A DNA stretch of 25,673 nucleotides from IMG/VR virus record IMGVR_UViG_3300005664_000074, positions 1-25,673 of that record; one strand, given 5' to 3'. The DNA is from a virus. The notes beneath the pieces are model-generated. The model was not told the origin of the DNA. It did not search any database and worked only from the letters and a program-made list of their open reading frames with translations. This document shows positions 10,305 through 25,412 of the stretch, piece by piece. The position numbers were made by a program, and so were the translations under genes. How positions within the stretch are numbered: position 1 is the stretch's first letter; each line of letters opens with the position of its first letter.

Positions 10305-11495
10305 TTATGCAGGTCTGTAAACTAAGATGTCTTTATCGTTAGTGATATTTACGTCAAACGCATAATCAACTCTATAACGAGTAACATAATCTAAATTTTT
10401 ATCTGCCATTGGCAAAATAGCTGCTTTGTTCCATTCGGCATTTAAAGCCGTTCCAAAGTGTAAATCACTTGTTTTAGCACCCATTAAGAAATTAGACTTA
10501 ATGTAAGGTAATTCAATTAATCTACGACCTAAGAAGTCCATTTCTTTTGCTCCAATAAAGTAAGAACCTGAACCTGTTGCAATGTTTGCTTGTGCAAATC
10601 TATAAGCATCACCAAACAATGAGTCAGCAAACAACATAAATGTAGGGTCTTTTTTCATAATCTTGTTAATGCCTCTGTAAACTCTTGTTAATACTGAAAT
10701 TGCATTTGAGGCATTTACAAAACAAGCTTTCGCTGAATTGGCAGTATATGTCCCTGTGTATCCAGAAGTGTCCAATCCTACTGTAAAAGTAGTTGAACTT
10801 ACAATCGTAATAGCATATTCTCCGTTTACACCTGTAAAACTTCCACCTGCACCACCTACAATTGTAATAATATCTCCATCATTTAAATTTGCGGTGCTTG
10901 AAACGGTAAATACTGCATCACTTGCAACAGAAATAGCAGATATTGATAATTTATCAACGCCTACTTGTGGAGCTAATTTATTAACTGATGAACTCGCTTC
11001 TGCTTTAGCAAATAAACCAGTTACTACTGCCGTTGATGCAGAGTTTGTAACGCCTGATAATGTTGCAGCATCAACCGAACCATGCCAAATTGAAGCATCA
11101 ATAAAAGCACCATTTCTTAATGCATTTTGTTGTACGATTGCTTCTTCAATAGTTTCAGGTAATTCAAAATCACCCATTCTTCCTCTTGGTTGTTGCGATG
11201 CAAACCAAGTAGCATTTAAATTAGACGAGTCATACTCTTCCATAATAGCAAATGCTTGAGGGTCTAAGTATTTTTCGCCAATAGATGTACCATGTGCAGA
11301 AGCAGTAAAAGCAGCAACGCTATCTTTTACAATTAAAGATTTTGACAAAGTAGGTACTACCATTCTTTTGTCAATATTAGTGTGAACGGTGATTAAATTG
11401 TTGTCAATTGTTTCGCCCGCTAAAACGGTTTGAGCAATTACCTCTTGTAACGCTTCGCCCGCATAAGTATTTGGTGATACGGTAATTTGTGCCAT
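10305..11495 (-). CDS. Major capsid protein with inserted beta domain, 396 aa
   Basis: Position after a protease-scaffold gene, length and composition fit an HK97-fold major capsid protein. Residues 1-180 and 257-396 read as capsid sequence (for example RGINKIMKKDPTFMLFADS, then GRRLIELPYI and the terminal NDKDILVYRPA). Between them, residues about 184-256 form a separate beta-rich, Gly/Thr-rich domain: FTVSSTANLNDGDIITIVGG, SFTGVNGEYAITIVSSTTF and SGYTGTY. Its pattern resembles the FCCH-like domain seen as an insertion in other phage virion proteins. The insertion probably projects from the capsid surface. The ATG overlaps the TAA of the scaffold gene (TAATG), fitting coordinated high expression. 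Confidence 0.8.
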   Translation of the reverse strand: MAQITVSPNTYAGEALQEVIAQTVLAGETIDNNLITVHTNIDKRMVVPTLSKSLIVKDSVAAFTASAHGTSIGEKYLDPQAFAIMEEYDSSNLNATWFASQQPRGRMGDFELPETIEEAIVQQNALRNGAFIDASIWHGSVDAATLSGVTNSASTAVVTGLFAKAEASSSVNKLAPQVGVDKLSISAISVASDAVFTVSSTANLNDGDIITIVGGAGGSFTGVNGEYAITIVSSTTFTVGLDTSGYTGTYTANSAKACFVNASNAISVLTRVYRGINKIMKKDPTFMLFADSLFGDAYRFAQANIATGSGSYFIGAKEMDFLGRRLIELPYIKSNFLMGAKTSDLHFGTALNAEWNKAAILPMADKNLDYVTRYRVDYAFDVNITNDKDILVYRPA

Positions 11496-19360: not shown

Positions 19361-20169
19361 TCAAGTTTTTTCTTGTGCTTTTCGGCTTTCTATAAAACTC
19401 ATTACATCTTCTAAAGGAGTGTTTAACACTTGGTCGAATGCGTTTCTACTCATTTGGGGGTTCGTGAAAACACCTGTGGTCGCAACGTCTGCAAATAAAG
19501 GGTAGTAACCCATGCGTTCAAGGTACTCATTCCTTTTTCCAACTCCGCCACTACTGCTGAATGTCGCTGCATACTTTCCCCCCATTTCATCATAAAATTG
19601 AGCAAAAAAAAACTGCAAGCGTGTATAACATCCATTCGTGCGTGTTCTTTTAGCCATGCTATTCTGTCTTCAATAGCTTGCAAATCTTGATAATACTCGC
19701 CATCTCTAAGATAAACCGCTGCAATTAAGATACCTTTATCAATTTCGCTTGATTGCTCTATTTGTTTAAGTAGATCGGTGCAATCCATGAAGTCACCGGC
19801 CGTTCCTTTTTCAAAAGTTCTAATCGAAAACTTACGCCCTTTAATTTCAAATGTTTCTTTAGGTCGTTCACGTTCCAAGAATGCAAATTGAGTAACAAAA
19901 AGATTATTTATTTTATCCCATTCAACCATGATTAACTCCTCATAAGTAATCCCTTTGCTTAAAGCTGCAATTACCCTACAAATACTTTCAATGCTTTTTC
20001 TTTGTGCGTCTAATGTATTACCTGCTTCAAAATCTTTCATTGCTTCTGCTGCTAATTGAATGTATGGATACGCTTCATTCCATTGATTGTATGTAATGTC
20101 GTATCGTCCTGTAGGTATTAAAAACTCTTTTTGAGTTATGCCGTTTGCTTTAAAGCTAAATCTATTCAT
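19361..20169 (-). CDS. Tail assembly chaperone, predicted -1 frameshift product, about 269 aa
   Basis: The frame starting at 20169 meets nine Ts (minus strand, positions 19612 to 19604). The codons there are AGT TTT TTT TTG, so the run contains T_TTT_TTT, a classic -1 slippery heptamer. Slipping back one base continues in an open frame to TGA at 19361 and reads FFFAQFYDEMGGKYAATF and so on, with normal protein composition ending DVMSFIESRKAQEKT. This is the behaviour of tail assembly chaperones (lambda G and G-T), which coat the tape measure before tube polymerisation. A second run, GGGGGG about 25 bases on, would lead to the same frame. A homopolymer sequencing error is the main alternative. 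Confidence 0.5.
19450..20169 (-). CDS. Tail assembly chaperone-like protein, zero-frame product, 239 aa
   Basis: The start ATG 20169 overlaps the stop of terL (ATGA). Residues 1-100 include NRFSFKANGITQKEFLIPTG and a helical region (PYIQLAAEAMKDFEAGN). Residues about 125-190 (FEIKGRKFSIRTFEKGTAGD, then IDKGILIAAVYLRDGEYYQ) resemble the mostly helical chaperones of siphophage tails. The reading continues past the T9 run for about 50 residues to a TGA at 19450. Which of the two C termini is the main product cannot be told from sequence alone. I favour a chaperone over other packaging-linked roles because of the slippery site. Confidence 0.6.
   Translation of the reverse strand: MNRFSFKANGITQKEFLIPTGRYDITYNQWNEAYPYIQLAAEAMKDFEAGNTLDAQRKSIESICRVIAALSKGITYEELIMVEWDKINNLFVTQFAFLERERPKETFEIKGRKFSIRTFEKGTAGDFMDCTDLLKQIEQSSEIDKGILIAAVYLRDGEYYQDLQAIEDRIAWLKEHARMDVIHACSFFLLNFMMKWGESMQRHSAVVAELEKGMSTLNAWVTTLYLQTLRPQVFSRTPK
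19604..19612 (-). other. Slippery T9 run, candidate -1 frameshift site
   Basis: Nine consecutive Ts on the minus strand in the codon context AGT TTT TTT TTG provide T_TTT_TTT. Both frames stay open downstream for more than 150 bases. The nearby GGGGGGAAAG (minus strand, around 19574-19583) contains the lambda-type G_GGA_AAG string, but in the already shifted frame. Confidence 0.5.
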
Positions 20170-23333: not shown

Positions 23334-23567
23334 TTATTTTTTTTGAATTTTATCTCTTAATTCTGCTGCTCTTTTGTAGTCTTCGTTTTCGAGTGCTTGG
23401 TTAAGTTGTTCTTGTAATGGAATTTGACTATTTTTTATTCTATCTAAACTTTCACTTAACTTATTCATCCACTTATTAAATTCATCTTGGTTAAATTGGA
23501 TTCCTATGATATTACTATTAATTTCAAATGCTCTAACTTTCTTTCCTATTAATTCTTGATTGTTCAT
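23334..23567 (-). CDS. UVR-motif protein, 77 aa
   Basis: The C terminus LNQALENEDYKRAAELRDKI (residues about 56-75) is a textbook UVR motif, the helical hairpin by which UvrB and UvrC, and proteins such as McsA and ClpC, bind partners. The N-terminal 50 residues are helical and not recognised. I start at ATG 23567 (MNNQELIGKK), behind a leader AACCAAAAACAAAAGAAA. An upstream in-frame TTG is part of the TATCTTTG box and is rejected. A small free UVR protein could compete for or recruit host UvrA/UvrB or a Clp protease. Confidence 0.75.
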   Translation of the reverse strand: MNNQELIGKKVRAFEINSNIIGIQFNQDEFNKWMNKLSESLDRIKNSQIPLQEQLNQALENEDYKRAAELRDKIQKK

Positions 23568-23588
23568 TTTCTTTTGTTTTTGGTTTAT

Positions 23589-23596
23589 CAAAGATA
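23589..23596 (-). promoter_or_regulatory. -7 box TATCTTTG before the UVR-motif gene
   Basis: Minus-strand TATCTTTG, an exact TAnnTTTG match, 21 bases upstream of ATG 23567. No TTTG stands at the -33 distance. It could drive the UVR, lipoprotein, ParB-like and glycosyltransferase genes. Confidence 0.4.
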
Positions 23597-24171: not shown

Positions 24172-24447
24172 TTATTTAAATTCAATTTCTTTTTTAAATT
24201 TATTTTTGTAAAAATAGTAATTTTGTAATGTATGGACATGCTTCACCCATTTTGGTATTTTAAAGTCTTTAGGTGACTTTAAAAGCCATTCTTCGGTTAG
24301 CTCTATGGGTTCAAATTGGTAACTTGGTTCATATAAAAACTTTATCCCATTTCCAAAGCCTACGCTTGATTCAATAATATAATTTACTTCAATTATTGCA
24401 TTTTGATATTTTACAAAATTTCCAATTCTTAATTCAGTTACTTTCAT
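24172..24447 (-). CDS. Conserved Bacteroidota phage protein (RIGN / HxLQN type), 91 aa
   Basis: The N-terminal ELRIGNFVKYQN, central PIELTEEWLLKSP and C-terminal VKHVHTLQNYYF are the hallmarks I know from a widespread family of short proteins in Bacteroidota phages and genomes (Arg-Ile-Gly-Asn, Thr-Glu-Glu-Trp-Leu, Val-His-x-Leu-Gln-Asn). The function is not established. The gene starts at ATG 24447 after the local leader motif (ATTAAAAACTAAGAAA), and lies only 18 bases past the stop of the extended ssb frame, as if ssb really ends there. Confidence 0.8.
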   Translation of the reverse strand: MKVTELRIGNFVKYQNAIIEVNYIIESSVGFGNGIKFLYEPSYQFEPIELTEEWLLKSPKDFKIPKWVKHVHTLQNYYFYKNKFKKEIEFK

Positions 24448-24465: not shown

Positions 24466-24546
24466 TTAAAATGGGTCGTCTTCAAATATGTCGCTTTTAG
24501 GTATGCTATTTTCTACTTGCTCACTACTTGGTGTGCTATCTTTAGC
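24466..24546 (-). other. In-frame ssb extension beyond the amber codon, ending in the SSB tip
   Basis: Directly after the TAG at 24547-24549 the same frame runs 26 codons to TAA at 24466-24468. It encodes a polar linker (AKDSTPSSEQVENSIPKS) and then DIFEDDPF, which matches the acidic Asp-Asp-x-Pro-Phe tip that SSB proteins use to bind partner enzymes. The chance of this tip occurring by accident in frame is very small. Confidence 0.8.
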
Positions 24547-24858
24547 CTAACTTAACAACTCAATCTTTTCAGCTTTAATAATTGTTTTGTATTGAGTAAC
24601 GCCATCTTTGTCCCATTTCTCGGTTTTAATTTGACCTTGAACAGATACCAAAGTTCCTTTTGTTAGATACTCTGCAATTTTAGTTGATTTTTGAAAGCGT
24701 TTAATAGTGTGCCATTCGGTTTGTTCTACTTTTTCGCCCGCTTTGTTTGTGAAGCTTTCACTTGTTGCAAGCGTGAACGTTATTACATTCATTTCTGCGC
24801 TTACGTTATTGTATTCGGCATCTTTGCCTACTCTTCCTACTAATTGTGCGTTATTCAT
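24547..24858 (-). CDS. ssb: Single-stranded DNA-binding protein, 103 aa to amber codon (130 aa if read through)
   Basis: An OB-fold SSB: MNNAQLVGRVGKDAEYN, VITFTLATSESF (about 25-36), TEWHTIKRF (about 47-55), KGTLVSVQGQIKTEKW (about 67-82) and YKTIIKAEKIELLS. These match the normal order of SSB core motifs. The core ends at a TAG codon, yet the conserved C-terminal tip follows in frame (24466-24546). The protein would coat ssDNA during phage replication or recombination. Without the tip it could bind DNA but not recruit partners. The TAG may be a recent nonsense mutation, a leaky stop giving two forms, or an amber codon suppressed in the host. Start ATG 24858 has an A-rich leader. Confidence 0.93.
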   Translation of the reverse strand: MNNAQLVGRVGKDAEYNNVSAEMNVITFTLATSESFTNKAGEKVEQTEWHTIKRFQKSTKIAEYLTKGTLVSVQGQIKTEKWDKDGVTQYKTIIKAEKIELLS

Positions 24859-24881: not shown

Positions 24882-25412
24882 TTAAATTTTATAGTAATCT
24901 TCTAAGTATTTTAGCGTGCTTTCTTTGTTTGAACCTCGATAAATCCCCCCATTGTGCATACGTACAATGTCGCTTTCATTTGCTTCAACTCCGCATTTTT
25001 CTAAGTGCATTTCAGCACCTAACCTTAGTAAATTTTCAGTAATCAACTTTGCAATTTCGGGGTTAAAGCAATCCTGGTGCGTGTATGTTGTGTTAAATTG
25101 TTCATTGTGTTCACGTACTGCTATTGCGTGAATTTGAAGTATTCCAAAAGCTAACCCATTATCCCCTATTGTGTCGGGATTGTTTTGGCTTTCCTTAATG
25201 CAGAGTTTAGCTACTATATCTTTGTAATTGATAGTATCTTCAATTATTGGCGTTTTTGGCTCTTTTTTTGGCGTGTGCTGCTTCATTTCATCTCTTACCA
25301 TGTCTTTACATGTTATCATACCTAAATTAAACCCTAAGACAAATCCTAAGAATGTAAAAGCTATTGCAAAGAATATTCTTGATAGCAAGCTTGTTTTTTT
25401 AAATTTTCTCAT
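24882..25412 (-). CDS. Membrane-anchored lytic transglycosylase / lysozyme-like protein, 176 aa
   Basis: A basic start (MRKFKK) and hydrophobic segment (residues about 10-34) anchor the protein in the inner membrane. A spacer (about 40-62, Pro/Lys/Glu-rich) precedes a lysozyme-fold domain: CIKESQNNP with catalytic Glu74, GLAFGILQI (86-94) and MHNGGIYRG (152-160), all in the SLT order. It would cleave peptidoglycan glycan strands, either at cell entry or as a signal-anchored endolysin. It lies away from the lysis-like cluster, between ssb and a methyltransferase, which leaves both options open. It starts at ATG 25412. Confidence 0.8.
   Translation of the reverse strand: MRKFKKTSLLSRIFFAIAFTFLGFVLGFNLGMITCKDMVRDEMKQHTPKKEPKTPIIEDTINYKDIVAKLCIKESQNNPDTIGDNGLAFGILQIHAIAVREHNEQFNTTYTHQDCFNPEIAKLITENLLRLGAEMHLEKCGVEANESDIVRMHNGGIYRGSNKESTLKYLEDYYKI

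Follow-up and report, generated by a model that had tools for sequence, protein, structure and literature searches.

An in-frame amber codon between the core and the tip of a viral ssb gene, likely a recent nonsense change or a sequence error

The interrupted ssb gene

How should an ssb gene be read when its core ends at a TAG, and the same frame continues behind the TAG into an SSB-type tip? The question is raised by a locus in IMGVR_UViG_3300005664_000074, a virus record of 25,673 bases that is possibly a fragment and that was analyzed over its entire length, positions 1–25,673 (hereafter, the window). The GC content of the window is low (32%), and the terminase, portal, head protease, and tape-measure genes are all located on the minus strand. 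The ssb gene is also on the minus strand, near the right end of the window. A first-pass annotation had reported an amber codon in ssb shortly before the tip, followed by 26 further codons to DIFEDDPF, a TAA, and the next gene 18 bases on. Its coordinates are correct and the layout was confirmed by translation, although the strand had been omitted. The features of the locus, all on the minus strand, are listed below in the direction of transcription.

24882..25412, minus strand: upstream neighbor, SLT-type transglycosylase-like protein (PF01464, 21.3 bits, exactly at the cut-off of 21.3)
24550..24858, minus strand: ssb core, OB fold, 103 codons from ATG at 24858 to AGT at 24550 (PF00436, PHROG 44, and PDB matches)
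24547..24549, minus strand: in-frame TAG, read directly from the sequence, in the context AGT-TAG-GCT
24469..24546, minus strand: 26-codon linker and SSB-type tip with the end SDIFEDDPF (AKDSTPSSEQVENSIPKSDIFEDDPF), from translation; no second tip of this kind in the window, codon use like that of coding sequence
24466..24468, minus strand: TAA that would close the long form
24172..24447, minus strand: next gene downstream, of unknown function (PHROG 10066), with its ATG at 24447, 18 bases past the TAA

Three genes downstream of ssb, a small protein with a UvrB/UvrC motif (PF02151, 8.3e-08) is encoded at 23337–23591 on the minus strand.

The ssb product of the window is a member of PF00436 and its core is complete. 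Residues 1–102 match profile positions 1–104 of 104 (E = 1.5e-25, 89.7 bits against a cut-off of 26). The core also matches PHROG 44, single strand DNA binding protein, at 1e-30, and 30 distinct PDB sequences match it at 1e-5 or better. A complete OB-fold core, a short linker, and an acidic P-F tip in frame are shared between the window and the tailed SSBs of bacteria and phages in this family. In the window, however, the tip is behind the TAG, which splits the core from the tail.

The sequence behind the stop and related loci

The tip pattern occurs once among the stop-to-stop frames of the window, in six reading frames, compared with a mean of 0.03 and a maximum of 1 in 200 dinucleotide shuffles, and a stricter version of the pattern occurs once in the window and in none of 200 dinucleotide shuffles. 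The open frame of 26 codons alone is unremarkable, because at least 26 open codons follow the stop in 2 of the 39 genes, ssb counted. Codon use scores 0.58 bits per codon in the tail and 0.51 in the core. The tail score is not exceeded by 84% of 287 coding pieces, and of 520 equally long stop-free segments from the opposite strand only one reaches it. The 26 codons contain no in-frame ATG, GTG, or TTG that could serve as a restart codon. The unique tip and the coding-like codon use thus mark the tail, which includes the peptide region AKDSTPSSEQVENSIPK, as undecayed coding sequence. As judged from its sequence, the tail appears to have been translated until recently, or to be translated still.

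The arrangement was then sought at other SSB loci. The final scan gave 201 loci with a tblastn match, 20 of which were removed as duplicate DNA, leaving 181 distinct SSB loci (92 viral, with the window included as a positive control, and 89 from genomes). A stop followed by a tip is present in the window only, and in none of the 180 other loci. Among the other viral loci, 85 of 91 carry the tip under a pattern that tolerates up to 20 residues behind it. The six SSBs without a pattern match have 125 to 166 amino acids, and some have near-tips, e.g., NDRIPF and EDDIQF. Core-only SSBs (112 amino acids or shorter) were found at none of the 91. With 85 of 91 tipped and none core-only, the tailed SSB is the usual phage state. 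The earlier assignment of the tail to ssb is therefore upheld by the tip motif, the codon use, the 18-base gap to the next gene, and the prevalence of the tip at viral loci.

The genome loci show a different composition: 28 are tipped, 4 end otherwise, and the remaining 57 are core-only, in a sample that the query skews and in which Flavobacterium is abundant. The core-only paralogs of Flavobacterium end at 104–107 amino acids, and the TAG-terminated product of the window (103 amino acids) ends at about the same place. A core-only gene, however, closes at the end of the core and lacks a downstream tip. No tip follows the stop at any of the 57 core-only genome loci, whereas in the window 26 codons and the tip follow in frame. 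Core-only SSBs of 104–107 amino acids were observed at locus L017 (7995–9152) and at 54 further loci of 87, mostly on Flavobacterium contigs. At L017, two of them stand in tandem and are followed by an HRDC-domain gene. A longer SSB is encoded alongside the core-only one in all five Flavobacterium-type genomes inspected, and the five longer proteins end in NDLPF (three), DDSPY (one), and EDFNV (one).

A tree was constructed from 108 SSB rows after removal of near-duplicates. The 28 core-only rows all cluster together. The window is placed in a wider group of 40 rows (support 98/99), together with core-only SSBs and tailed SSBs of phages and bacteria, but its position is unsure because its branch is very long (1.4). 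The closest SSB in the tree set, L234, has 49% identity to that of the window. In the codon comparison among related SSBs, which had been proposed as a check, the arrangement recurred at none of 180 loci, all of them distant from the window. These data also bear on a settled switch to a core-only SSB, in which truncation would be favored and the tail would be a fossil. Such a switch would agree with the completeness of the core and with the wider tree group shared with the Flavobacterium-dominated core-only SSBs. It is nevertheless very improbable, given an undecayed tail, the lack of core-only SSBs at 91 other viral loci, and the unsure position of a long branch.

Closer relatives of the window were searched for by several means. 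Megablast with 25,000 of the 25,673 bases returned no close relative among 50,697 phage records. None was returned by scans of IMG/VR for the SSB, the terminase, two neighbor genes, the gene at 10305–11495, and the gene after the terminase; these scans use short peptide patterns and miss relatives (one omitted L088 and L089, which encode relatives of the query), and the relative searches may omit records that lie very close to the window. A search with a degenerate DNA pattern of the tip was likewise without matches. The nearest terminases, 66–67% identical, are those of L088 (9,007 bases) and L089 (27,144 bases), and no SSB was found in either contig. Many genome relatives of the window SSB come from Bacteroidota. 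A terminase search of 395 genomes in the phylum of the L017 Flavobacterium genome gave matches in 14, at only 27–33%, and did not settle the host. A literature search listed no paper title on an amber codon within a phage ssb, which is not proof of absence.

Another reading-frame irregularity of the window was observed in the gene after the terminase. A minus-strand ORF at 20169–19450, directly after the terminase, overlaps an ORF in the −1 frame that ends at 19361, with a run of nine T at the frame switch (first T at 19612, minus strand). The frames were joined at this run prior to alignment with L088 and L089. L088 (about 8780) and L089 (about 9757), the two contigs with the nearest terminases, share this layout, down to a run of exactly nine T at the corresponding position. 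Downstream of the switch, the alignment between the −1 frames of L088 and the window extends as far as the L088 contig reaches, and the L089 sequence is similar until it stops about 30 residues past the switch. The first 186 residues of the gene have no match in the 50,697 phage records at 1e-5. Tail assembly chaperone genes are known for programmed −1 frameshift or slippage of this kind, and the T9 switch resembles such a programmed frameshift, or slippage of the polymerase, in a tail-chaperone-like gene. The conservation of the nine-T switch in both contigs suggests that the overlap is not an assembly indel.

TAG in the rest of the window

If TAG were read as sense throughout the genome, other genes would be expected to be interrupted as well. 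The 39 ORFs taken as genes end in 29 TAA, 7 TGA, and 3 TAG (ssb and two others). They comprise 7921 sense codons, and TAG interrupts a gene only once. The terminase, portal, head protease, and tape-measure genes are free of interrupting TAG. When TAG is taken as sense, the 3′ extension is at most two residues in every gene apart from ssb, and three genes lengthen upstream by 6 to 14 residues. The coding density rises from 91.5% to 91.8% (83 bases, 0.3%), a figure based on the 3′ extensions of the three genes that end in TAG, the upstream gains being excluded. ORFs of at least 60 amino acids number 68 with TAG as sense vs. 54 without. The extra TAG-holding ORFs overlie other genes or the opposite strand, except for one of 70 amino acids at 811–1023, beside a tRNA-like gene, which was taken for chance.

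Genome-wide recoding of TAG was ruled out by the lack of other interrupted genes, the small density gain, and the presence of TAG-ended genes. The use of genetic code 15, with TAG as glutamine, has been demonstrated for two crAss-like phages, and the criterion given in that study is a density rise of >10% for contigs of 5–100 kb (PMC9523058). The window, at 0.3%, falls far below this value. An in-frame TAG is common to the window and the code-15 phages described there, but the window has one TAG in one gene, no density gain, and no CTA tRNA found. Although crAss-like phages are stated to infect Bacteroidetes (PMC7886860), the source of many of the SSB relatives, the density figure and the uninterrupted structural genes leave code 15 with a negligible probability.

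A more restricted possibility, raised for the host in the first-pass annotation, is that the host, or a part of the phage genome outside the record, suppresses the amber, so that a 130-residue SSB would be made and the TAG would be near neutral. The two other TAG-ended genes are each backed by a further stop two codons later, so that neither of these TAGs is a lone terminator, and a record that is possibly a fragment could miss a tRNA. Double stops are weak evidence, however, because tails of no more than one residue follow 9 of the 38 other genes, both TAG-ended ones among them. The single TAG among 7921 sense codons also argues against suppression. The check for a suppressor tRNA with a CTA anticodon, proposed earlier, gave a negative result at the ARAGORN default setting over the 25,673 bases of this possible fragment: the only match, at 952–1027 on the minus strand, is Ile(TAT). 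At a very loose threshold, ARAGORN gave 108 matches, mostly noise among those listed. Taken with the evidence on both sides, suppression has only a small chance of being correct.

The tRNA-like gene at 952–1027 has an Rfam tRNA score of 35.5 bits, an acceptor of 8 pairs, and a strong T arm, with a poor anticodon stem. A hairpin-like stretch and a T run come after it. It may be a decayed or unusual tRNA.

Recent change, readthrough, and their consequences

The window likely encodes an ordinary tailed phage SSB with a recent in-frame amber at the border of core and linker, either in the genome or in the assembled sequence. It is from the state of the tail alone that we infer a recent stop or an error: the tip is intact, no second stop occurs across 26 codons, and codon use is coding-like. 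Behind a recent amber, the tail would not have had time to decay. A stray substitution easily yields an amber codon here, since 813 of the 7921 sense codons, about one in ten, are one change from TAG. Consistently, a survey of prokaryotic genes describes in-frame stops as widespread in bacterial genes, as tending to last no longer than population polymorphisms do, and as enriched in genes of the mobilome (PMC7918605). The window resembles these cases in having a single TAG in an otherwise intact mobile-element gene, but differs in that no known relative shares its stop. A fresh nonsense mutation had been listed among the early explanations, and such a mutation, or an error, is now the best fit to an undecayed tail, an arrangement absent from 180 other loci, and a genome free of general recoding.

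With such a change, translation would normally halt at residue 103, and the product would be a complete OB-fold core. This core should still bind ssDNA, but could not recruit partners via the tip. For E. coli SSB, the C-terminal 8 residues are described as serving to bind partners rather than DNA, and a protein lacking them as complementing only partly (PMC11372144).

Some considerations speak against a recent mutation. Functional readthrough would likewise preserve the tail, and the amber falls between core and linker, the position at which core-only bacterial SSBs terminate and at which truncation would spare a usable protein. In tolerated or programmed readthrough, a small share of ribosomes would insert a residue at the TAG. 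The resulting SSB oligomers would be mixed and carry few tips, and the phage would coat its ssDNA while drawing in few host partners. The tail is intact, in frame, and coding-like, the gap to the next gene suits the long form, and either product would make sense. SSBs without a tip also occur naturally in some bacteria, as seen at 57 of 89 genome loci (in the query-biased sample) and in the 28 grouped tree rows, and two OB-fold-only SSBs of Anabaena bind ssDNA according to PMC3976300. Furthermore, the authors of PMC7918605 propose that many genes with in-frame stops are not pseudogenes, that the stops may regulate expression, and that readthrough is frequent. Against it, the arrangement was not found at any of the 180 other SSB loci, no second gene of the window is interrupted by TAG, and no RNA structure was detected around the stop (for 161 bases, z = +0.65, with 151 of 200 shuffles folding at least as well). 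The early suggestion of two SSB forms by readthrough therefore gained no positive evidence from the RNA structure, the related loci, or the tRNA search, and we give readthrough a low probability. The chance is slim that the amber is a kept translational valve, i.e., that leaky termination yields mostly tipless SSB with a minority of full-length protein and so tunes the recruitment of host repair and replication proteins to the ssDNA of the phage.

Were the amber retained and read through, it would offer a natural means to titrate the number of SSB tips per oligomer, which is otherwise known only from engineering. The locus is also a clear case of an in-frame stop in a single virus contig that suggests recoding. 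The density gain, the search for other interrupted genes, the comparison with relatives, and the state of the tail are the checks by which the apparent recoding is reduced to a likely recent mutation or error.
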